A stretch of 64,000 bases of DNA from Kineothrix sp. MB12-C1 (lineage in GTDB: Bacteria > Bacillota > Clostridia > Lachnospirales > Lachnospiraceae). Position numbers and translations under genes: made by a program. Under the pieces are notes generated by a model, which saw only the letters and a program-made list of their open reading frames with translations, did no database searches and was not told the DNA's origin. Positions 1,434 through 63,638 of this stretch are shown one piece after another; within the stretch, counting starts at the first letter, position 1; the number at the start of each line of letters is the position of its first letter. The stretch lies in NCBI RefSeq assembly GCF_030863805.1, contig NZ_CP132957.1:124001-188000 (forward strand), read 5' to 3'.

Positions 1434-1548
1434 CTAAAAACACACACTGTAGTATAGCATATCCACCATTTCTTGGAAAGAACAAAAGTGTGCTTCTTCA
1501 CTCTCGCGATTAAAACTTTTAGCTGCACAGCCCACTTCTTACTATGAC

Positions 1549-1592
1549 AAAAAAACGAGCGGCGTATTCAGTCTTCACCGAATATGCCGCCT
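1549..1592 (-). terminator. Rho-independent terminator after degV
   Basis: Read on the minus strand, GGCGGCATATTC pairs with GAATACGCCGC across a short loop and is followed by a T run (plus-strand A run at 1549-1555). It lies just past the degV stop codon and separates it from the topoisomerase gene. Confidence 0.8.
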
Positions 1593-1611
1593 ATGAAACT
1601 AATTTTCATTC

Positions 1612-2478
1612 CTAATTCTTCTTACAGCAGGCCACTGCCAGAGCACCTGGCCCTATATGGCAGGCCACGCTAAGAGATAATGGCGCCATATGCACATCGA
1701 ATCCGGGGAATACCTGGAGCAACTCTTCCTTAAATGCATGAGCAGCTTCCACATTGTGTGCATAAGCAACCTGCAGCCAGATGTTGTCCTTATCTGCACC
1801 GCCGAAACGATTTATCATATCGTTTTTAATGGCTGTCGTCATAATTGTTTTGCCCTGTGCTGTAGTACGTGCCTTGGCAAACGCATCCAGTTTTCCGCCT
1901 TGAATCTGCAATACCGGCTTTAACTTAAGGAGCGTGCCGAGTGCTGCTGCAGCCGGAGTGATTCGTCCGCCTTTTTTTAAATAGTATAAGGTGTCCAACA
2001 TAATATAAACACTGGAATTAGCCTTGTCCTTTTCCAGGAATTCTTTGATTTCTACCGCACTCTTTCCTTCTTTCACCAACTGAATAGCATCCAAAGCTGC
2101 CTGCCTCTGTGTTACAGAGATTCTCTGATTATCGACTACCTGCACTTTTCCTTCGTAGTCATGAGAAAGCATAATTGCACTCTGGCAAGAGCCGGAAAGG
2201 CTGCTGCTCATAGGAATATGCACGATTTCATCATAATCATCTAATAAATTATTCCATAAGTTCATCACCGCTTCCGGAGAAGGCTGGCTAGTTACCACCT
2301 GATCTCCCGCAGCGAGTCTTTCATAAAACTGCTCTTGAGATAAATCAATATCTTCAAAAAAGGTTTCTTCATTAATCATAAAAGGCATCGGTAGTATATG
2401 CAACCCAAGTTCCTTTGCCTGTACCTGCGTAATTCCACTGTTGCTGTCCGTTACAATTGCAATATTTGCCAATTTCAT
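1612..2478 (-). CDS. DegV family fatty-acid-binding protein (FakB type)
   Basis: DegV/FakB proteins hold a fatty acid while the FakA kinase phosphorylates it, feeding exogenous acyl chains into phospholipid synthesis. The protein has the typical length (288 residues from the chosen start), the N-terminal IVTDSNSGI motif and the SSSLSGSCQSA ligand-loop motif near residue 90. ATG 2478 is preferred over the ATG nine bases upstream because AGAGG sits 9 nt before it. The matching kinase FakA is encoded two genes upstream on the same strand (4715-6379), with recG between them. The specific fatty acid cannot be read from the sequence. Confidence 0.88.
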   Translation of the reverse strand: MKLANIAIVTDSNSGITQVQAKELGLHILPMPFMINEETFFEDIDLSQEQFYERLAAGDQVVTSQPSPEAVMNLWNNLLDDYDEIVHIPMSSSLSGSCQSAIMLSHDYEGKVQVVDNQRISVTQRQAALDAIQLVKEGKSAVEIKEFLEKDKANSSVYIMLDTLYYLKKGGRITPAAAALGTLLKLKPVLQIQGGKLDAFAKARTTAQGKTIMTTAIKNDMINRFGGADKDNIWLQVAYAHNVEAAHAFKEELLQVFPGFDVHMAPLSLSVACHIGPGALAVACCKKN

Positions 2479-2555
2479 TTCCGGCATCCTCTGCTCATTC
2501 CGGCACGGATACCTCTCCTTCCGCCTGTAAATTTTGCTCTTCTTATATCTTACTG

Positions 2556-4610
2556 TCAGATTGTTCTAAAGTCAACCGAATTTATTACCTTTTCCAGATA
2601 CTGCTTAAGGGGTAAATGCATAGGATTATCGAGCATTTCATCTTTCAAAAGAAGTTCATCCACACATTCTCCGGCTTGCTTTAATACATCTGAATCTTGA
2701 TAAATATCTCCTATTTTAAAGTCCATCAATCCGCTTTGCCGAATACCGAACAAATCGCCTGGTCCTCGTAGCTTCAAATCTTCTCCCGCAATAAAAAATC
2801 CATCGTTGGAGTGATTTAAAATATCCAAACGTTCCATCGTCTGCTTCTTATTCGAACCGCTTACAAAGATACAATAGGACTGATGTTCTCCACGACCAAC
2901 ACGTCCTCTTAACTGATGAAGCTGTGCTAAACCGAAACGTTCTGCGTTCTCCACCATCATCACCGTCGCATTCGGTACGTTAATTCCTACCTCAATTACG
3001 GTGGTGGATACAAGTACATCGATATGATGTGCTGCGTATGCCTCCATAATTTTATTTTTATCTGCAGGTCTCATTTTACCATGAAGGTAGGCTATTTGTA
3101 TGTTTGAAGAAAGGACATTTTTCAGCTTTTCCGTATAGGAAATTACATTTTCTGCGCCTTCTATTTCTCCTTCCTCCACCATCGGGCAAATGACATATAT
3201 CTGCCGCCCGGCCTGCACTTCTTTTTCTATAAACCGATAGGCTTTCTCCCTGTAATCCGTAGATACAACAGCATTCTTGATGGGAAGCCGATTAGCCGGA
3301 AGTTCATCTACAATGGAAATATCCAAATCTCCATATAAAATAATGGCGAGAGTTCGAGGAATAGGGGTCGCACTCATTACTATAACGTGTACATTCTCTC
3401 CTTTTCCCGCAAGGGTTTCCCTCTGTCTCACTCCGAAGCGATGCTGCTCATCCGTTACTACGAGAGCGAGCCTGTGGTAGTTGACCTTCTCCTGGATAAG
3501 CGCATGTGTGCCGATAATCAAGTTGACGCCGCCGCTTTCTATTTCTTTATATGCCTCTTTTTTTTCTTTCACAGTCATAGAACCGGTCAGTAATATAGGA
3601 ATAAAAGGCAGATTATGTGCTTTTGTAAGTTCTGTTACTGCTTCGAAATGCTGCCTTGCCAACACTTCGGTCGGAGCCATGAAAGCACTTTGATAGCCGT
3701 TGGATACACACATTAAAAGAGCAAGAAAGGCAAGAATTGTCTTACCGGATCCAACATCGCCTTGTATGAGTCTATTCATCACTCTGTCGCTCAATAAATC
3801 TTCCTTGATTTCTTCCCATACCTTTTGCTGGGCATTGGTCAACGCATAAGGAAGCCCTTCGATTAACCGATTCGTCTGAGCGACCTCCATCATTGGATAA
3901 GAGTTCGTAAGAACTTCATTGTGCTCTCTACATTTGCGAAGCATTAATATGAATAAAAAGAACTCATCGAACACAAGCCGCTTTCTGGCCGCCAGCATCT
4001 TTTCATAGTCGGGCGGAAAATGAATATGTTCTATCGCCTGTTCATAGGAAATAAGTTCTTGAGACTCTTTGATATCCTCCGGTAAATAGTCCTCGCCAAA
4101 ATGATAATGGGACAATGCCTGCTTTACAGACTTTGTAATCATATTGTTCGTCAGTCCGGCTGTAAGAGAATATTTAGGCTGCAAAATTCCGGTTAGTTTG
4201 AGATATTCTTCCGGTTTATATATTTTCGCCTGCTCCATAATTAACCGGCCGCCCCTCATCTGAGGAATTCCGCGAAAAATATAGAAAAGTCCCTTTTTCA
4301 ACATACTTTTTACATAAGGAGTATTAAAGTATGTCATAGCAACTTGTCCGCCTGCATCCTTAATGACAAAATTCAGTATAGTCAGATTACCTGCCTTTTT
4401 CGTGCTAATATTACCTACAAGGCAGGCACGTATCGAACAAACCTCCCCAATAGGCGCCTCGCTAATCATAACAGGCTCCTGAAAAGTCTCATAATCTCTT
4501 GGATATTCGTGTAAAAGTTCTCCTACATTACTTATATTAAGCTTTGCAAAAAGCTTTACCGTCTTCTCTCCCACACCTTTAATATCAATAATATTCGTAC
4601 TATCATTCAT
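2556..4610 (-). CDS. recG: ATP-dependent DNA helicase RecG
   Basis: RecG remodels stalled forks and Holliday junctions. At 684 residues the length matches the family. An N-terminal helix-hairpin-type DIKGVGEKT segment and wedge/OB region are followed by the helicase core: Walker A GDVGSGKT near residue 285, the DEQH box near 387, SATPIPRT and the motif VI region QLRGRVGRGEHQS. Starts at ATG 4616 or 4610 are better than the TTG at 4628, which lies inside a terminator. No strong Shine-Dalgarno precedes any of them, which is unusual here. It lies between fakA and degV. Confidence 0.95.
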   Translation of the reverse strand: MNDSTNIIDIKGVGEKTVKLFAKLNISNVGELLHEYPRDYETFQEPVMISEAPIGEVCSIRACLVGNISTKKAGNLTILNFVIKDAGGQVAMTYFNTPYVKSMLKKGLFYIFRGIPQMRGGRLIMEQAKIYKPEEYLKLTGILQPKYSLTAGLTNNMITKSVKQALSHYHFGEDYLPEDIKESQELISYEQAIEHIHFPPDYEKMLAARKRLVFDEFFLFILMLRKCREHNEVLTNSYPMMEVAQTNRLIEGLPYALTNAQQKVWEEIKEDLLSDRVMNRLIQGDVGSGKTILAFLALLMCVSNGYQSAFMAPTEVLARQHFEAVTELTKAHNLPFIPILLTGSMTVKEKKEAYKEIESGGVNLIIGTHALIQEKVNYHRLALVVTDEQHRFGVRQRETLAGKGENVHVIVMSATPIPRTLAIILYGDLDISIVDELPANRLPIKNAVVSTDYREKAYRFIEKEVQAGRQIYVICPMVEEGEIEGAENVISYTEKLKNVLSSNIQIAYLHGKMRPADKNKIMEAYAAHHIDVLVSTTVIEVGINVPNATVMMVENAERFGLAQLHQLRGRVGRGEHQSYCIFVSGSNKKQTMERLDILNHSNDGFFIAGEDLKLRGPGDLFGIRQSGLMDFKIGDIYQDSDVLKQAGECVDELLLKDEMLDNPMHLPLKQYLEKVINSVDFRTI

Positions 4611-55918: not shown

Positions 55919-56743
55919 ATGAGCAATATAATCTTAGAATTAAAAGATATCTGTTATTCTTATCATAATTTAAATGGCGAAACTCCCGCCTTATCACATA
56001 TATCCTTTCAAGTGAAGCAAGGGGAGTTTCTCGCAATTGTGGGACCGAGCGGATGCGGCAAATCTACTCTTTTATCGATTATCTTCGGCCTGCTGGCTCC
56101 GGAGAACGGCGAACTCATCTTTTCCGTTAATTCAGGAGAAATGCAGGCGGCAAGACACCAGACAGCAGGCATTTCTCCCCAGATCGGCTATATGCTTCAG
56201 CACGACCACCTTTTTGAATGGAGAACCATTTATCAGAACGTTATTCTCGGTTTGGAAATCAATAAACAACTCACCCCTGAGAAAATAGATCGGGTACTCG
56301 AACTTTTAAGGGATTATGATCTTTATAAATTTAAAGATAAAAAACCGAGCGAATTATCCGGCGGTATGAAGCAAAGAGCCGCTCTTATCCGTACTCTCGT
56401 TCTGGACCCTGAATTGCTTCTTTTAGATGAGCCATTCAGCGCACTCGACTATCAAACCCGCCTCTCCGTCTCTTCCGATATCTGTAATATTATTCGTTCT
56501 ACCGGCAAGACAGCAATTCTAATTACCCACGATTTGTCAGAAGCTATCAGTCTTGCTGACCGCATACTCGTTATGTCAAAGCGTCCCGCTACCATTAAGT
56601 GTGATATCCCGATTCACCTGACGCTTTCCGATCATTCTCCCTTAGCTTCTAGAAACGCACCGGAATTCCGGGAATATTTCAATCAATTATGGAAGGAGAT
56701 TTCCGATGAAACCTATACTCAGGACGCAAAAAACACTAAGTAA
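55919..56743 (+). CDS. ABC importer ATPase, nitrate/sulfonate/taurine (SsuB) type
   Basis: 274 residues. Walker A GPSGCGKST at residues 41-49, Q-loop YMLQHDHLFEWRT, signature LSGGMKQRAALIR near 153 and Walker B LLLLDEPFSALD near 175. The family supplies energy for SsuB/TauB/ThiZ-type uptake. The AGGAGG site is about 20 nt from ATG 55919, farther than usual, and no better in-frame start is seen. Its 3' end overlaps the permease start by 38 nt. The upstream TATAAT (55873-55878) is the only promoter hint. Confidence 0.87.
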   Translation: MSNIILELKDICYSYHNLNGETPALSHISFQVKQGEFLAIVGPSGCGKSTLLSIIFGLLAPENGELIFSVNSGEMQAARHQTAGISPQIGYMLQHDHLFEWRTIYQNVILGLEINKQLTPEKIDRVLELLRDYDLYKFKDKKPSELSGGMKQRAALIRTLVLDPELLLLDEPFSALDYQTRLSVSSDICNIIRSTGKTAILITHDLSEAISLADRILVMSKRPATIKCDIPIHLTLSDHSPLASRNAPEFREYFNQLWKEISDETYTQDAKNTK

Positions 56744-57521
56744 TCAGGAGAAATATGAACGTTCTCATAAAAGACATCATTGTATCGTTACCTTGGCACG
56801 TATTCTTATTCTCGTTGTATTCCTCACTCTCTGGGAAGTTTCTGCCAGAAAAGGGTATATTGACTCTTTCTTTTTCAGCAGCCCGAGCAATGTGGCTCTT
56901 TGCTTTATAGATATGGTAAAGGATCTATCCTTTTTTTCTAATACCGGCATTACTTTACTCGAAACGATTATCAGCTTTGCTCTCGTTTTTATTATAGGAA
57001 TCGTTTCGGCCACTATTTTGTGGTATTCCAAACGGTGTTCGAAAATCTTAGAGCCTTATCTCGTCATTTTAAATAGCTTACCGAAATCTGCTCTGGCACC
57101 TTTGTTCATCGTATGGCTCGGCACCGGAATAAACACCATTATTGTCGCAGGAATCTCTGTGGCGGTCTTCGGTTCCATTATCAATCTTTATACCGGTTTT
57201 AAACAAGTGGATGAAGAGAAAATTAAATTGATCTACACACTGGGAGGCAAAAAGAAAGATGCCTTTTTAAAGGTTGTCCTTCCCGGTTCCGTTCCTACTA
57301 TTTTAAGTAATATGAAGGTGAATATCGGCCTTGCCCTTGTGGGCGTTATTATCGGCGAATTCCTCGCCGCAAGAAGAGGACTTGGATATCTGATCATATA
57401 TGGTTCCCAGGTATTTAAGTTGAATCTGGTCATAACCTCTATTATTATCCTTTGCTTTATTGCAATGGGACTATACCAAATGATCCAGGGATTGGAACAT
57501 TATTATAAGAAAAAAATATAA
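56706..57521 (+). CDS. ABC importer permease, SsuC/TauC type
   Basis: 271 residues with about six hydrophobic segments and the BPD_transp EAA-like loop KIKLIYTLGGKKKDAFLKVVLP near residue 178-199. GGAAGGAG precedes ATG 56706 within the ATPase gene. Pairing with an SsuB-type ATPase indicates uptake of a small organic or inorganic ligand (sulfonate, nitrate, or thiamine precursor). No substrate-binding protein gene follows or precedes within the window, which is unusual. Substrate not assignable. Confidence 0.87.
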   Translation: MKPILRTQKTLSNQEKYERSHKRHHCIVTLARILILVVFLTLWEVSARKGYIDSFFFSSPSNVALCFIDMVKDLSFFSNTGITLLETIISFALVFIIGIVSATILWYSKRCSKILEPYLVILNSLPKSALAPLFIVWLGTGINTIIVAGISVAVFGSIINLYTGFKQVDEEKIKLIYTLGGKKKDAFLKVVLPGSVPTILSNMKVNIGLALVGVIIGEFLAARRGLGYLIIYGSQVFKLNLVITSIIILCFIAMGLYQMIQGLEHYYKKKI

Positions 57522-57576: not shown

Positions 57577-57605
57577 TTGACAAAAGTATGGGGAAATAGT
57601 AAGTT
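57577..57605 (+). promoter_or_regulatory. Promoter ahead of the 32-codon ORF
   Basis: A consensus TTGACA (57577-57582) is followed after 17 bp by TAAGTT (57600-57605), a poor -10. It lies about 52 bp before the small ORF. Moderate support only. Confidence 0.4.
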
Positions 57606-57656
57606 AATAATGGTACAAAAAATTACACGTAAATAAAAGGAAAGGAGGACGAAGTT

Positions 57657-57755
57657 ATGACGAATTTATACGATAAGTTTTTACTTGCTAATGCAGCAGG
57701 CGTACATCAATTAAATAGCCGTTCTAATGGAATTGCCTCCGGTAATATAGATTAG
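57657..57755 (+). CDS. 32-residue peptide, candidate leader peptide for the ABC exporter pair
   Basis: An ORF of 32 codons plus TAG, starting MTNLYDKFLLANAAGVHQLN. AAAGGAGGACGAAGTT places a near-perfect Shine-Dalgarno about 8 nt before ATG 57657, so it is very probably translated. The peptide is soluble, with no signal, membrane segment, or Cys/Ser-rich core expected of a lantibiotic. Directly after its stop codon come a perfect 11-bp hairpin and two strong terminators, then the heterodimeric ABC exporter genes. This mirrors the bmrB leader peptide upstream of bmrCD. It could instead be an exported signal peptide. No homologue recognised. Confidence 0.65.
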   Translation: MTNLYDKFLLANAAGVHQLNSRSNGIASGNID

Positions 57756-57758
57756 ATG

Positions 57759-57784
57759 ATTATTGATAATGAATTATCAATAAT
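57759..57784 (+). promoter_or_regulatory. Hairpin immediately after the 32-codon ORF
   Basis: ATTATTGATAA and TTATCAATAAT are perfect 11-bp arms around a TGAA loop, beginning 4 nt past the stop codon. It lacks a T run and so is more likely a pause or alternative structure than a terminator. Confidence 0.6.
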
Positions 57785-57815
57785 TAATCGTAAGATACTC
57801 ATATTCTGTTTACTG

Positions 57816-57848
57816 ATGCGGTTCAAATTTATTTGACCGCATTTTTTA
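57816..57848 (+). terminator. Rho-independent terminator 1 (attenuator candidate)
   Basis: ATGCGGTTCAAAT and ATTTGACCGCAT form a 12-bp stem with a single bulged T and a two-base loop, followed by six T. It lies 60 nt past the small ORF's stop codon. Confidence 0.88.
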
Positions 57849-57900
57849 TTACTTTATTATGAGTTATTCACTGCTATTACCCCATTGCGTCTTTTATTAA

Positions 57901-57931
57901 AAGCCACGGCATTTCCTGCCGGGGCTTTTTT
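57901..57931 (+). terminator. Rho-independent terminator 2 (attenuator candidate)
   Basis: AAGCCACGGCA and TGCCGGGGCTT pair at 10 of 11 positions around a TTTCC loop and run into TTTTTT. It ends 64 nt before the start codon of the first ABC gene, and I see no convincing promoter in that interval. Confidence 0.88.
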
Positions 57932-57994
57932 ATGTAATAAAAAAATTCTTTTAGAATTCTTAATAAACATCCATGTATTATGAGGAGGAACATT

Positions 57995-59755
57995 ATGGAA
58001 CCAACGCAACACAAGAAACTATCAACCTATATCTTCGAGCATAAATTTACCTATCTTTTCGCTATCCTATGCATGATTATCAGCGTATCGTTGGATTTAT
58101 TGTCTCCCCAACTCACTAAACGCATTATCGATGATGTCATTATCGGCGGCCAGACTTGGCAGCTTAAATATTTATTGACGGGTATCCTCATTATCGGTAT
58201 CGGTCGGTGTATTTTTCAATATGTGAAGGAATATCTCTTCGATGTGGCCGGTATCCGTATTGCCGCCAAGATGCGGCGTCATCTCTTCGATCATATTCAG
58301 TCGCTGAGTGCCGATTTCTTCGAAAGAACCAATACCGGAGAACTTATGGCGCGTATTAAAGACGATATCGATCGAATTGGCGACGGTCTTACCTTCGTGG
58401 GAATGCTTATTATTGAAGTTGTAATACATACATCCATCGTCCTTTTTTGTATGTACAATTTGGATATGAGACTGGCCCTCCTCCCTACTGCCTTTATGAT
58501 TGTTGCAGGAAGCATCGCTATTGCTATGGAGAAGAAGCTAGATTCTGTCTATGGGGCAATTATTGAAGAAAATGCTATTTTAAATACAGTAGCGGAAGAA
58601 AATCTGGCAGGTGTGCGTACCGTAAAGGCATTCGCCAGAGAAAAATTTGAAATCACTAAGTTTTTGTCTCATAACAAGAAATATTATGAACTTAACATGA
58701 AGCAATCCAAAATATTCGTTACATACTATCCTTATCTTTCTTTTATCACGAAGCTTCTTCCTCTCCTCGTTCTTTTATTCGGCGGTATGCTCGTTATGAA
58801 AGATGAGATTTCCCTCGGTTCTCTCGGTGCCTTCGTGGAGTACTCCATGAATATCGTATGGCCTATGGAAATGCTCGGATGGCTGACTAACAGCTTCTCT
58901 TCCGCTGTCGCCTCCAATCGCAAATTAAATAAGATTTATGAAGAATCCCCCTCTATTAGAGAAAAGGATACTCCTATCTCATTGGAGCAGGTGGCCGGAA
59001 AAATCGAATTTTCTCATGTCTCCTTTTCTAAAAAGGATGCCAATACTTCAGCGAATATCGATATTTTACAAGATATTTCCTTTTGTGTGGAGCCGGGAAA
59101 AACAATCGGTATCATGGGAGCTACCGGAGCCGGTAAAAGTTCTATCATCCATCTTCTTCAGCGTTTTTACGATGTTACAGATGGACAGATCCTTATTGAT
59201 GGCACGGATATTCGGGATATGAATCTGAAACAGTTGAGGGGATGTATTTCCCTCGTTATGCAGGAGGTTTTCCTCTTTTCCGATACAATTAATGAAAATG
59301 TGAAGTTAGGAAAAAGAGATTTCCTCGACACTGCTGCTGTAAAAATGGCTTCCTTCGAAGCGCAAGCCAGTAATTTCATCGAGCGGATGGATAAACAATA
59401 TGATACCGTTATCGGCGAACGCGGTGTAGGGCTTTCCGGCGGACAGAAACAGCGTATCAGTATCGCCAGAGCTCTCGCTAAAAAGAATCCTATTCTCGTT
59501 CTGGACGATTCCACCTCCGCCCTCGATATGGAGACGGAACAGATGATCCAACAAACATTAAAAGAACTGAATTCTACAACAAAACTAATTATTGCTCACC
59601 GCATCAGCTCTGTTGTCCATGCAGACGAAATCATCGTTCTTGAGAACGGAAGCATTAAAGAACGCGGTACCCATAAAACATTGCTCGCAGAAAAGGGACT
59701 TTACTATTCCACCTATGCAGCACAATATGAAGGAGGTGAACAAAATGCCCATTAA
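57995..59755 (+). CDS. ABC exporter half-transporter with degenerate ATPase site (BmrC-like)
   Basis: 586 residues from ATG 57995, chosen because GAGGAGG lies 6 nt upstream. Six membrane helices at about 15-310, then a nucleotide-binding domain: Walker A GATGAGKSS, signature LSGGQKQRIS and Walker B ILVLDDSTSALD. The residue after the Walker B aspartate is Asp rather than the catalytic Glu, which marks the impaired site of heterodimeric exporters such as BmrCD, LmrCD and TM287/288. Its last 11 nt overlap the second half-transporter gene. Exports drugs, lipids or peptides; substrate unknown. Confidence 0.92.
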   Translation: MEPTQHKKLSTYIFEHKFTYLFAILCMIISVSLDLLSPQLTKRIIDDVIIGGQTWQLKYLLTGILIIGIGRCIFQYVKEYLFDVAGIRIAAKMRRHLFDHIQSLSADFFERTNTGELMARIKDDIDRIGDGLTFVGMLIIEVVIHTSIVLFCMYNLDMRLALLPTAFMIVAGSIAIAMEKKLDSVYGAIIEENAILNTVAEENLAGVRTVKAFAREKFEITKFLSHNKKYYELNMKQSKIFVTYYPYLSFITKLLPLLVLLFGGMLVMKDEISLGSLGAFVEYSMNIVWPMEMLGWLTNSFSSAVASNRKLNKIYEESPSIREKDTPISLEQVAGKIEFSHVSFSKKDANTSANIDILQDISFCVEPGKTIGIMGATGAGKSSIIHLLQRFYDVTDGQILIDGTDIRDMNLKQLRGCISLVMQEVFLFSDTINENVKLGKRDFLDTAAVKMASFEAQASNFIERMDKQYDTVIGERGVGLSGGQKQRISIARALAKKNPILVLDDSTSALDMETEQMIQQTLKELNSTTKLIIAHRISSVVHADEIIVLENGSIKERGTHKTLLAEKGLYYSTYAAQYEGGEQNAH

Positions 59756-61517
59756 TTCCTTTAAAGATGATGAACAAACGATAGAGGTCAACAAACTGAA
59801 GACGCTCACAAGGCTTCTTTCCTATCTCTTACAATATAAGAAAGAAATTTTACTCGTGCTTATGATTATGGCATATTGCGTATTTGTTTCTCTATTAAAT
59901 CCCTTGATTATGGAATCGGCTATCGACAATTATATTTCTGTCGGTAATATGTCCGGGCTTTATCGACTTATAGCCCTTGCCCTTACTTTGAATATTTTAA
60001 TGGTAGCCGGAATTAAGATCCGTATGTATATTATGGCAAAAGTATGTAACAATATCCTCGTTACCATACGCCAGGATTTATATAGCCATATTCAGACGCT
60101 CGATTTTCATTTTTTCGACAGCCGTCCTACCGGAAAGATACTCGCCCGTATTATCGGTGATATCAATTCTTTAAAAGATGTACTTTCCAACTGTGTCACC
60201 ACATTAATTCCTGATTTTATAACGATACTTGCGGTAGTGATCATTATGTTCGTGAAGCATCCGGTATTGGCTGCTGCTTCCCTGATCAGTACCCCGCTTA
60301 TGGGACTTGGGCTTTTTCTTATTCAATATCATTCCCATAAAAGATGGCAGATTTTTCGAAAAAAGTCTTCCAATCTGAATGCATTCGTACATGAAGACTT
60401 TTCAGGAATTCGTATTATCCAAAGTTTCACTGCGGAGGAGGAAACGAAGCAAACCTTTGGGGAACTTGTAAAAGAATACAAAGATGCCTTCATCTCTGCA
60501 ATTCGCCTCAATGACGCCTTCGGTTCTGTTATCGACTTTTGTTGGGGTGTCGGTACGGTAATGCTTTATTTTACAGGTATTATTATTATCGGTACAGACA
60601 AAGTATCTATCGGTACCTTCATCGCTTTTGGTACGTATATTTCCATGTTCTGGCATCCCATTATGAACTTGAGTAATTTCTATACACAGCTTATTACGAA
60701 TATTTCAGGAGCAGAGCGCGTGTTCGATATTATGGACACGAAAGCAGAAATTACAGATGCTTCTTCCGTTATCGACATTCCCTCTATCGAAGGCGAAGTA
60801 CGTTTTGAACATGTTTCCTTCTCCTATGACGGAAGCACTAAAGTATTAGACGATGTGAGCTTCACTATTAAGCCCGGAGAAACGATCGCTCTTGTAGGCC
60901 CTACCGGAGCCGGTAAAACGACTATTGTCAACTTAATCAGCAGATTCTATGATGTACAGCAGGGAAATGTCTACGTTGATGGATATGATGTGAAAAAAGT
61001 CTCCATAGAGAGCCTTAGAAGACAGATGGGAATTATGACACAGGATAACTTTTTGTTCTCCGATAGCATAAAGGATAATATTCGCTATGGCAAGCTAGAT
61101 GCATCCGATGAGGAGATTATAACTGCAGCGAAAGCTGTTCATGCCCATGAATTCATTTCAAAACTGGAGAAAGGCTATGATTACGAGTTGTCCGAAAGAG
61201 GTGGCGGGCTGTCCGGCGGACAAAAGCAGCTTCTCGCCTTTGCCAGAACAATGGTATCCATGCCTAAGATACTTATTTTGGATGAGGCCACTTCCAGTAT
61301 CGATACACAGACGGAACTTCTCGTACAGGCGGGAATTGAAAACCTTTTGAAAGGAAGAACTTCTTTTGTTGTAGCACATCGCCTCTCTACCATCCAGAAA
61401 GCAGATCGTATTTTCTACGTGGATAGCGGACGTATTATCGAAGAGGGTTCCCCTGCTGAACTTATGAAGAAAAAGGGACATTATTATAATCTATACATGT
61501 CGCAGTATCACTACTAA
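59745..61517 (+). CDS. ABC exporter half-transporter with catalytic ATPase site (BmrD-like)
   Basis: 590 residues from ATG 59745, preceded by AAGGAGGTG inside the end of the first gene; the longer in-frame upstream start lies inside that gene and is rejected. Membrane domain at about 25-330, then Walker A GPTGAGKTT, signature LSGGQKQLLAFAR and Walker B ILILDEATSSID with the catalytic Glu. It complements the partner's degenerate site, so the two form one asymmetric exporter. Expression appears to depend on read-through of two upstream terminators. Confidence 0.93.
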   Translation: MPINSFKDDEQTIEVNKLKTLTRLLSYLLQYKKEILLVLMIMAYCVFVSLLNPLIMESAIDNYISVGNMSGLYRLIALALTLNILMVAGIKIRMYIMAKVCNNILVTIRQDLYSHIQTLDFHFFDSRPTGKILARIIGDINSLKDVLSNCVTTLIPDFITILAVVIIMFVKHPVLAAASLISTPLMGLGLFLIQYHSHKRWQIFRKKSSNLNAFVHEDFSGIRIIQSFTAEEETKQTFGELVKEYKDAFISAIRLNDAFGSVIDFCWGVGTVMLYFTGIIIIGTDKVSIGTFIAFGTYISMFWHPIMNLSNFYTQLITNISGAERVFDIMDTKAEITDASSVIDIPSIEGEVRFEHVSFSYDGSTKVLDDVSFTIKPGETIALVGPTGAGKTTIVNLISRFYDVQQGNVYVDGYDVKKVSIESLRRQMGIMTQDNFLFSDSIKDNIRYGKLDASDEEIITAAKAVHAHEFISKLEKGYDYELSERGGGLSGGQKQLLAFARTMVSMPKILILDEATSSIDTQTELLVQAGIENLLKGRTSFVVAHRLSTIQKADRIFYVDSGRIIEEGSPAELMKKKGHYYNLYMSQYHY

Positions 61518-61575: not shown

Positions 61576-61600
61576 CAGGAGGCCCTTTTCAGGCCTCCTG
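61576..61600 (-). terminator. Terminator overlapping the 3' end of thiN
   Basis: CAGGAGGCC and GGCCTCCTG are perfect 9-bp arms around a 7-nt loop that includes the TGA stop codon of thiN (61589-61591). The last codons (QEA) form the 5' arm; TTTTG follows on the minus strand. It may also cap the plus-strand ABC transcript. Confidence 0.75.
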
Positions 61601-62257
61601 CTCTTCTTCATTCCAAGTGACAATCAGTAAGAGCATTCCCTCTTCTACTGTTATCTCTCCTTCTTCTCCTATAAATTCATTACTAATACCGATGGGATAA
61701 TCATTGGTTACCGTTATCTGATCCAGCAAATATTTCATCCCTTTAATAGTTACCCCTTTTGCCTCTTTTCCAAGAGCAAACAAGGATAAATATCCATCCA
61801 TACTTTTCGCAAACTTGACAGATTCATCCTTTATCACTGTTACCATTACGTTGGCATCCATCATATAGCCTTTTTTACCATTGTTCTTCAAATAACTGAG
61901 GCATTGAATATTGGCGATAGTATGCTCCAACCGTCCTCCCATCGCTCCATAAATTAAGAAGGTCTCATATCCCTTTTCGATACCTAGTTTAATGGCGGCC
62001 AAAGCATCCGTATCATCCTTTTCAGTATTTAACTCAATAACTTTTCCCGGATTCCTGCTTTTTATTTCTTCAATTTCCTCTTTCATACTCTCATCGATAG
62101 AATCCATATCTCCAATCAGAAAATCCGGTTCTATAGCAAGTAACTTACAATACAGATACCCTCCATCCACCGCAATGCATAAATCTTCTTTCTTTTTTTC
62201 TATCTCAGATAGGGTAAAATCTCCCGCTCCGATTATAATGCATCTTCCGTTTCCCAA
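61589..62257 (-). CDS. thiN: Thiamine pyrophosphokinase
   Basis: Converts thiamine to thiamine diphosphate with ATP. The motifs IAVDGGYLYC, FLIGDMDSID near residue 50, NTEKDDTDALAAI and YGAMGGRLEHTIANI are those of ThiN/TPK. A TTG start at 62257 is preferred: AAAGGAG lies 8 nt upstream, giving 222 residues; the GTG at 62302 overlaps the neighbouring gene and has no ribosome site. It is followed by a terminator and preceded by a TPR membrane protein gene on the same strand. Enzyme confidently identified; start less so. Confidence 0.93.
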   Translation of the reverse strand: MGNGRCIIIGAGDFTLSEIEKKKEDLCIAVDGGYLYCKLLAIEPDFLIGDMDSIDESMKEEIEEIKSRNPGKVIELNTEKDDTDALAAIKLGIEKGYETFLIYGAMGGRLEHTIANIQCLSYLKNNGKKGYMMDANVMVTVIKDESVKFAKSMDGYLSLFALGKEAKGVTIKGMKYLLDQITVTNDYPIGISNEFIGEEGEITVEEGMLLLIVTWNEEEQEA

Positions 62258-62270
62258 TCTGCTATCTCCT

Positions 62271-63638
62271 TTAATATGTTTTCTGCCATTGATAAGGCCC
62301 ACCCCAATCGCCTATCATAATCGTCGTCATTCCAACCTCTGTAAAGCTTCTTGTCTCCAAATGATAGTTCATCTCTGCCTCAAAGGCATTCTTCTTCTGC
62401 ACATTGCTATACATATAGCTGATCACATATTCCGTATGGGGATAATAACTTTCCGATTCCTTTGCCGGCTCGTAAGCAATTGCAGAGCGTTGTACACCGT
62501 CATCTTTCATCTGAGCTCCCCATACCGTAATGATACCGGCTGTATTTTCATTCGCCTTAAAATCCGGATATTCAAACGCCCACGCACCATTTTCCTGTCT
62601 CAAAATAACGTACTCTCTACTAACCGGAATATAGGTTGCACCTGTCCAATATTCCATCGTACCGTTGATAAAGGAATCACGGATTCCGGTATAAGTATCG
62701 GAAATGATAAATTCTTTCGCCGCTTCCAGATTCCCCGCATCGAACGCAAGGAACAGATCTGCAAAAATAGCTTGAACCTCCGCCTCTTTCTCCAAACAGA
62801 GAATTAAATTACTCCGGCTATCTGTCTCTATGAAGGAGTTCACCTGGTCCAGAATCGATTTATATTCTTTTAAGTGTTCCCTATTTATATGGAACTCCGG
62901 AACATCAACCATGGCAAATTGGGAAATAACCGTTTTTATTTCTTCCGAAGGATTCTGCGCATAAAGTTCAATAAGTTCCTTCATTATCTGTATATAAGAA
63001 TTAAAAGTACCGAATTCAGCCTCTTCCCGTTCCTCTAAAAAGAAGGTTTTACTTTCGTCCTCTCTCAATTTACTCGTAATACGTTCATATACCGTGTGCA
63101 TCAATGGAAGCGCATCCGCACTGTTACTATCCCGCTTCAATACCCCCAGAATCTTCTGGGCTGTTTCAAGCGTACACTGTCCGGCGTTAATTTCTGCCAC
63201 CGCCTCATTTAAAATAGCAGTACAATAATATTGCAAAAGACCTTCATCCTGAGTGTTTTCCCATCCTTCCAGAAGCACTTGCTTCGCATGCATATTATCT
63301 TCAAGATCAAAGTAGGCCTTAGCCATATAACGATAAGCTTTTACAGAAGTGGAATCTATTTTCAACGCATTTTCATAGGAATCAATAGCTTCCCCATATG
63401 CTTCCTCCTGAGTATACCCTTCTCCCGCTTTTAACTCCCTATTCAGGCGAATAACCGGCAAATTCCAAATAATAGCGGCACCACCACCAATAACAGCCAA
63501 TACACAAAGAAATAAGAACACTCGCTGCATCATGACAATTCGATGTCTTGCTTTTTTTCGTCTTGCCCTTTTCTCATTCACCGAAAGCCCTTGCATAGTT
63601 CTTCTTTCTTTTCCTGTATTAGTTTCTGCCCGTCTCAT
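62271..63638 (-). CDS. Membrane-anchored TPR protein
   Basis: 455 residues from ATG 63638 (GGGGGC upstream; the longer in-frame start adds residues that overlap the upstream promoter region). A basic cytoplasmic N-terminus (KRARRKKARHR) precedes one membrane helix at about 37-60. Two TPR units (YGEAIDSYENALKIDSTSVK and YMAKAYFDLEDNMHAKQVLL) follow, then a 300-residue extracellular domain of unknown fold. It starts 94 nt from the divergent YgjP-like gene and ends 14 nt before the thiN start. Probably surface-associated; no family assigned. Confidence 0.75.
   Translation of the reverse strand: MRRAETNTGKERRTMQGLSVNEKRARRKKARHRIVMMQRVFLFLCVLAVIGGGAAIIWNLPVIRLNRELKAGEGYTQEEAYGEAIDSYENALKIDSTSVKAYRYMAKAYFDLEDNMHAKQVLLEGWENTQDEGLLQYYCTAILNEAVAEINAGQCTLETAQKILGVLKRDSNSADALPLMHTVYERITSKLREDESKTFFLEEREEAEFGTFNSYIQIMKELIELYAQNPSEEIKTVISQFAMVDVPEFHINREHLKEYKSILDQVNSFIETDSRSNLILCLEKEAEVQAIFADLFLAFDAGNLEAAKEFIISDTYTGIRDSFINGTMEYWTGATYIPVSREYVILRQENGAWAFEYPDFKANENTAGIITVWGAQMKDDGVQRSAIAYEPAKESESYYPHTEYVISYMYSNVQKKNAFEAEMNYHLETRSFTEVGMTTIMIGDWGGPYQWQKTY

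Follow-up and report, generated by a model that had tools for sequence, protein, structure and literature searches.

A leader whose own Shine-Dalgarno sequence may act as an attenuator strand precedes ABC exporter genes in Kineothrix and other Lachnospiraceae

Drug-inducible control through a leader open reading frame (ORF) has so far been known from a few genes of Bacilli and clostridia (PMC4191407, PMC9226507, PMC10201436). In bmrB, the leader of bmrCD in Bacillus subtilis, induction by lincomycin needs translation of the leader, other drugs acting on the 50S subunit also induce, and a leader ORF with a terminator, an antiterminator and a predicted anti-antiterminator precedes a heterodimeric multidrug ABC exporter (PMC4191407). 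A comparable arrangement is found in the stretch of 64,000 nucleotides of Kineothrix sp. MB12-C1 analysed here (the window; contig NZ_CP132957.1, positions 124,001 to 188,000, the genome being a single contig of 3,935,490 bases), where a leader ORF and terminators lie, by sequence and prediction, between a promoter and a heterodimeric ABC exporter pair. The original prediction for this locus, translation-coupled attenuation of a BmrCD-like exporter, is supported by RNA pairings that covary between genera. The finding is real and larger than first described; the leader had been presented as an isolated case, and its plan recurs across the Lachnospiraceae. From the comparison of sequences we consider it probable, at roughly 0.7, that the leader is a ribosome-mediated transcription attenuator in which strand 1 is the leader ORF's own Shine-Dalgarno sequence (SD).

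All parts on which the original prediction was built (promoter, SD, 32-codon ORF, hairpin behind the stop codon, two terminators and two half-exporter genes) are present in the sequence, on the forward strand. The leader promoter, as read from the sequence, occupies 57577..57605 (TTGACA at 57577-57582, a spacer of 17 nucleotides (nt) and TAAGTT at 57600-57605), and the SD of the leader ORF, AAAGGAGG, is likewise read at 57641-57648. The SD region, R1 (57641..57650), is the proposed strand 1 on the basis of its complementarity to R2 across relatives. The leader ORF (57657..57755; 32 codons and a stop), recognised from the sequence and from the leader ORFs of Kineothrix orthologues, encodes MTNLYDKFLLANAAGVHQLNSRSNGIASGNID and contains R2, GGAATTGCCTCC (57729..57740), the predicted partner of either R1, as anti-antiterminator, or R3, as antiterminator. 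The post-stop hairpin (57757..57786) is there as described, with 13 predicted pairs including one G-U instead of the 11 bp first given. The intrinsic terminator T1 (57815..57848; -12.3 kcal/mol for 57815-57843, then a U run) begins 60 nt past the end of the leader ORF and holds R3a, GCGGTTC (57818-57824), a partner of R2. The second intrinsic terminator, T2 (57899..57931; -16.3 kcal/mol for 57899-57929, then a U run), holds R3b, GGCATTTCC (57908-57916), complementary to R2, and is similar to a GCCGTGGTA...TACCACGGC terminator found in several relatives. No antiterminator had been visible by eye; one exists as a prediction, formed by R2 with the 5′ arm of T1 and carrying the post-stop hairpin at its apex.

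Leader attenuators of the trp type consist of four mutually exclusive strands that are read by the position of the ribosome, with specific stalling codons. The same four-strand logic would apply to the window leader, in which no specific stalling codons are evident: strand 1 would be R1 (the SD), strand 2 R2 (an anti-SD within the ORF), and strands 3 and 4 the 5′ and 3′ arms of the terminator. Pairing of R2 with the terminator 5′ arm makes strand 2 similar to strand 4 and, in turn, strand 1 similar to strand 3, as in a classical attenuator. With no ribosome on the leader, 1:2 would form, 3:4 would terminate transcription and the exporter would be off. Under fast translation a ribosome at the stop codon would cover R2, 3:4 would again form and the exporter would again be off. 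A ribosome stalled at or soon after the start codon, for example by a translation inhibitor, would cover R1 and leave R2 free; 2:3 would then form, the terminator would fail and the exporter would be transcribed. We infer that termination is real at these sites, that the position of the ribosome is the decider, that drugs act as inducers and that the exporter clears these drugs from the cell.

The leader accompanies the exporter within the genus and beyond. An orthologue of exporter half 1 was found in 13 of 16 Kineothrix genomes (the one in the window, plus 12 showing 76-86% identity); the remaining three, of 65-90% completeness, hold only matches of 31-33%. A leader ORF stands upstream in all 13 (that of G006 was taken from L051, assumed to be on the same contig by its number; G and L numbers are our labels for genomes and loci), and the DNA GAATTGCCTCCGG lies close to its end in 12 of them, with GAACTGCCTCCAG in G004. 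In G007 (contig 58, L024 and L033) the orthologue was matched in two overlapping pieces, and the gene may be broken or the assembly wrong. Among 299 genomes of the family, one per genus, the exporter was detected at E <= 1e-170 in 54, the own genome included. The 53 hits in other genera comprise 51 readable orthologues and two unreadable at contig ends (G207, G031), and a leader ORF precedes 45 of those 51. Lack of the ORF in relatives that keep the exporter, the outcome that would have spoken against the original prediction, was thus not what we found. Leaders in relatives are 21-54 codons long and nearly all are followed by terminator-like hairpins with U runs.

Searches by pattern were of unequal value. 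When 84,980 species were scanned for the combination of SD, ATG and end motif, 15 loci came up, ten of which are such leaders, all in Lachnospiraceae; in the stretches inspected of the other five, from other bacteria, the leader layout was not seen. A first family-wide pattern (matching 8 of 299 genomes) was dropped, its gap range excluding the window itself and the matched strings looking chance-like. A second gave 12 matches in 9 of the 299 genomes, 7 judged to be leaders, and a third 16 matches in 14 genomes, 13 judged leaders by context, the reversed control giving 15; the pattern counts alone are no evidence. A class-wide exact pattern gave nine matches in 8 of 291 genomes, and the three loci opened included one leader, again from Lachnospiraceae. 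With that one exact pattern, and two of eight outside matches opened, no leader was recognised in 281 genomes outside the family.

Judged from these sequences, what is conserved in the leader is RNA and not peptide, because R2 occurs in all three reading frames: among a first 39 leaders it is read 33 times in frame 0, twice in frame 1 and four times in frame 2, and among a second set of 21 nine, ten and two times, respectively. This bears directly on the possibility that the ribosome is halted by a drug or substrate on a C-terminal arrest peptide, QLNxxx[RG]IASG in Kineothrix, and that the stall sets the RNA fold. The last residues are indeed the best-conserved part of the peptide in Kineothrix, and the prevailing frame of the first 39 leaders mostly reads I/V-T/A-S. 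Yet six of those leaders, one of them from Kineothrix (G002, where the end motif is read in a shifted frame), and 12 of the second 21 use other frames, and the remainder of the peptide is little conserved. Moreover, 11 of 13 Kineothrix leaders have identical ATT GCC TCC codons, as expected under an RNA constraint, and a ribosome stalled on R2 would itself cover R2. An arrest peptide is therefore unlikely in our judgement, and sensing seems to depend on RNA, namely on the SD and its complement within the ORF, rather than on a peptide motif. Asn is abundant in the bodies of the 66 leader peptides (14.2%, counted over 1404 residues), and Gly, Asp and Glu are scarce, figures that stand without a background set; this composition might leave the RNA free of pairing or influence stalling.

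The pairing of strands 1 and 2 is carried by a segment near each leader's end that is complementary to the leader's own SD, though the peptides share little. R2 ends 8-30 nt before the stop codon in 40 of 45 leaders and in 20 of 21 of the second set, which was gathered after the hypothesis was formed (L182 in it had already been seen as L137, and the small ORF of L172 was hand-picked from several). In many leaders a CATG before R2 also matches the start-codon region. The SD:R2 score was at least 17 in 29 of 39 leaders (26 of 36 once three leaders are set aside that came from a pattern requiring R1:R2; L135 is counted as anchored, yet was found through such a pattern) and in 17 of the 21 leaders of the second set; of 270 ordinary genes in the genome that holds the window, 3.7% reach this score. 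In permutations that re-chose the best site in every permuted pair, the cognate mean of 17.68, compared with 16.36 for permuted pairs, was reached once in 20000 (n=38), and never in 20000 when only leaders from outside Kineothrix were used (n=25) or in the second set (18.71 versus 16.16; n=21). The position after GGAGG is paired in 40 of 45 leaders (U-A 25, C-G 11, U-G 4), the five unpaired ones including the window and its nearest relatives, and the position before GAGG is paired in 30 of 45, as G-C, G-U, A-U, U-A, U-G and C-G. Shuffles of individual leaders gave modest results, with 23 of 39 below 0.05.

Covariation also links R2 to the terminator. When R2 was paired with the terminator 5′ arm plus loop, cognate pairs averaged -8.39 kcal/mol and permuted pairs -6.35 kcal/mol, a difference reached in none of 20000 permutations (n=45), nor in any of 20000 for the 32 non-Kineothrix leaders; in the second set the means were -10.18 and -8.75 kcal/mol (110 of 20000; n=18). 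For this comparison R2 was hand-set in three leaders (window, L067, L081), six hairpins missed by the finder were added (L080, L104, L099, L083, L033, L018), hairpins that were weak, overlapped the ORF end or lay inside a gene were left out, and the terminators of six later leaders were picked by eye. Clear cases are L078, where GAAATTACC pairs with GGTAATTTC, L089, where GAAATACC pairs with GGTATTTC, and L094, where CCATAG-C-CTGC pairs with GCAG-T-CTATGG. In folds with a ribosome modelled on the start codon, 2:3 comprised 4 or more pairs in 30 of 39 leaders; it was weaker with R1 free in 35 of 39, and an early 1:2 of at least 4 pairs formed in 38 of 39, all as equilibrium structures of partial transcripts, not kinetics, and without a shuffled control. 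Family-wide, the anti-antiterminator, antiterminator and terminator are thus predicted to be mutually exclusive, and their pairings covary.

These pairings also bear on two readings in which the exporter would not be governed by intrinsic attenuation of this kind. In the first, the terminators shield the exporter from the importer genes upstream, the ORF plays no part, and exporter transcription comes from a weak promoter of its own or from constant read-through. A promoter-like match of 10/12 at 57833-57860 could serve it; this match overlaps T1, is at background level and lacks its -10 half in G009. As the original prediction had it, there is no convincing promoter right before the exporter, the generic promoter scan listing no forward-strand match between 57931 and 57995. 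Insulation is at odds with the covariation of R2 with the terminator arms and with the recurrence of promoter, leader, R2 and terminator together as a unit in other genera, including before a GTPase gene, and we regard it as improbable. In the second, R1:R2 adjusts the leader's own translation, and the exporter is affected through RNA stability or Rho. Such self-tuning would fit the strength of R1:R2 in most leaders and its predicted extension over the start codon in many, but the U-run hairpins behind nearly all leaders, with 5′ arms that covary with R2, make it a decidedly unlikely account. That the leader product is a secreted signal or bacteriocin precursor for the ABC pair next to which the small ORF lies is highly improbable, given the slight conservation of the peptide, the use of all frames, an exporter in which the domain search found no peptidase domain, and the presence of the same kind of leader before a GTPase gene.

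Generic predictors add little for the window itself. The promoter scan found 18 where 17.6 were expected and is uninformative, and the terminator scan found 8 where 4.1 +/- 2.5 were expected, catching T2 and missing T1; the reality of the leader rests on the comparative evidence. For 54 of 66 leaders (a total in which one leader appears twice), the 120 nt upstream contain a promoter of the form TTGA-N16-18-TAnnnT, compared with 5.9% of base-shuffled upstream regions, and the 385-nt leader fold has z = -2.64 against 100 shuffles. A riboswitch or other Rfam family as the identity of the leader was rejected: Rfam 15 at curated cut-offs had no match in the window, its ten weak matches all lying far below cut-off, and no family matched the leaders of 20 related loci. 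The sole Rfam match in those 20 loci is the start of a THF riboswitch (RF01831) at 3012-3070 of L132, cut by the locus end and far downstream of the leader.

Within the window the bare 1:2 duplex has -11.0 kcal/mol, with five contiguous pairs (GGAGG) and three beyond a bulge. Two further bare duplexes involve R2: one on the T1 5′ arm, of 7 pairs plus 2 (-9.3 kcal/mol), and one on the T2 5′ arm and loop, with 8 of 9 positions paired (-11.5 kcal/mol). Before T1 is made, the predicted fold has R2 on R1. Once the 5′ arm of T1 is out, R2 lies on T1 in a long antiterminator capped by the post-stop hairpin. T1 and T2 are both closed in the predicted fold of the complete transcript.

A number of observations weigh against an attenuator with the SD as strand 1, and some concern the window directly. 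Its anti-antiterminator is weak when taken alone (1:2 shuffle p = 0.19), and R2 moves to T1 at equilibrium even without a ribosome; because the equilibrium fold prefers R2:T1, timing is the only way, if any, in which 1:2 could work in the window. In folds of the longer transcript R2 is not placed on T2, a single R2 could not occupy both terminators at once, and the model as it stands does not account for passage of T2. Within Kineothrix 2:3 is without covariation (4924 of 20000), as is 1:2, for which all 20000 permutations reached the cognate value in an older, circular test, each R2 having been chosen for its fit to the R1 of the same leader. Across the family 2:3 is poor in 9 of 39 leaders, the finder gave no terminator for 3 of the 21 second-set leaders, and the SD:R2 scores of 4 of those 21, at only 14-15, come close to the level of ordinary genes (mean 12.4). 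Upstream of 6 of the 51 readable orthologues no leader was recognised (G075, G367, G146, G188, G167 and G257; in G167 only about 0.4 kb upstream is readable). Leaders were called by our own reading of small ORFs with an SD, and the permutations treat genera as independent.

The exporter genes themselves agree with the original prediction, which had one degenerate and one intact ATPase site, as the translations show. Half 1 (57995..59755, forward strand; Walker B LDD, the degenerate site) and half 2 (59745..61517, forward strand; Walker B LDE, the intact site) each combine ABC_membrane and ABC_tran and overlap by 11 nt, so that two half-transporters with one degenerate ATPase site form a pair of the heterodimeric ABC exporter type. 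Their PDB matches include chains of YheI and YheH (BmrC and BmrD), and because other chains score higher, 'BmrCD-like' is meant as a description and not as a claim of orthology. Just upstream of the leader, at 55919-57521, lie importer ATPase and permease genes that are SaoA/SaoP-like below curated cut-offs; a similar permease end is also found upstream of the leader in G007, G009 and G014. A thiamine diphosphokinase gene on the minus strand (61589-62302) is convergent with the exporter pair.

The same kind of leader is found before other genes. It precedes other ABC exporters at L133 and L141 (by Pfam) and L145 (by likeness to L133). G231 (contig 105; L104/L141) has a near copy of its own exporter leader in front of an ABC exporter of another kind, as a duplicated or transferred leader would be. 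With a terminator, such a leader also precedes a divergent second RsgA-type GTPase gene in G062 (L132/L159), G199 (L102/L157) and G584 (L158), the first two found via the leader and G584 independently, by looking for RsgA, and these leaders share a TEY...TSVC peptide end. No such leader lies upstream of the two copies of canonical rsgA that were read (L155, L152). At L142 (G214; 1500-3087) a leader with a terminator lies upstream of an NFACT/RqcH-like gene with a 54-codon ORF and about 0.5 kb between them, and a link between the two is doubtful.

A wider and more tentative reading is one to which we give somewhat less than even odds: the Lachnospiraceae may carry an undescribed class of attenuators with the leader ORF's own ribosome-binding site as the sensor strand, which would control a small translation-stress regulon comprising a second RsgA GTPase and ABC exporters of more than one kind. 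Such a leader would report any elongation stall, whichever the drug or codon, since queues of stalled ribosomes would extend back to the start codon. In this large gut family the recurring plan would make exporters and a ribosome-linked GTPase answer to stalled ribosomes by a single rule, that the leader's ribosome-binding site and the terminator compete for one RNA segment. If this is true, genes that respond to translation stress would be predictable from sequence alone, and no drug-specific peptide would be needed.

Compared with described systems, the leader shares with bmrB the layout given at the outset, but the three structures of bmrB all lie inside its ORF (nt 60-162), whereas in the window the terminators follow the stop codon and the anti-antiterminator would be the SD, before the start codon, paired with the ORF end; bmrB additionally has an AbrB-controlled promoter (PMC4191407). 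The upstream ORF (uORF) of vmlR in B. subtilis is alike in that a stalled ribosome prevents an anti-antiterminator and an antiterminator with an apical hairpin blocks an intrinsic terminator. It differs in having a three-codon uORF inside a hairpin, a single-stranded SD and an ABCF target, whereas the Lachnospiraceae leaders have 21-54 codons (32 in the window), the SD itself as putative strand 1, and exporters and a GTPase as targets (PMC9226507). A uORF, a 5′ hairpin hiding it, a terminator and an 'anti-SD element' are also described for cplR of Clostridioides and lmo0919/vgaL of Listeria, where the uORF has three codons (MRI) and precedes ABCF genes; the SD partner of that element is not stated in the text available (PMC10201436). 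With 32 codons the window leader differs in length from the three- or four-codon uORFs of the vmlR/cplR kind. Because a legend of the cplR paper names 'anti-SD elements', part of the SD-pairing idea may already be in print (PMC10201436). The predicted 'ABC-leader' of lactobacilli is likewise a predicted attenuator before a multidrug export operon, likened here by description and not by sequence, and the part of the paper at hand mentions no leader ORF or SD pairing (PMC2965389). The toiL uORF of topAI in E. coli likewise reports stalls caused by several drug classes, but acts on a ribosome-binding site and Rho and not on an intrinsic terminator (PMC12121999). In the literature covered, which left most subscription papers outside, we found no report of such an element in Lachnospiraceae, nor of an attenuator with the leader's own SD as strand 1. 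The kind of control is already established by bmrB, vmlR, cplR, toiL and the ABC-leader, and what appears to be new here is the leader's own SD as the proposed strand 1.

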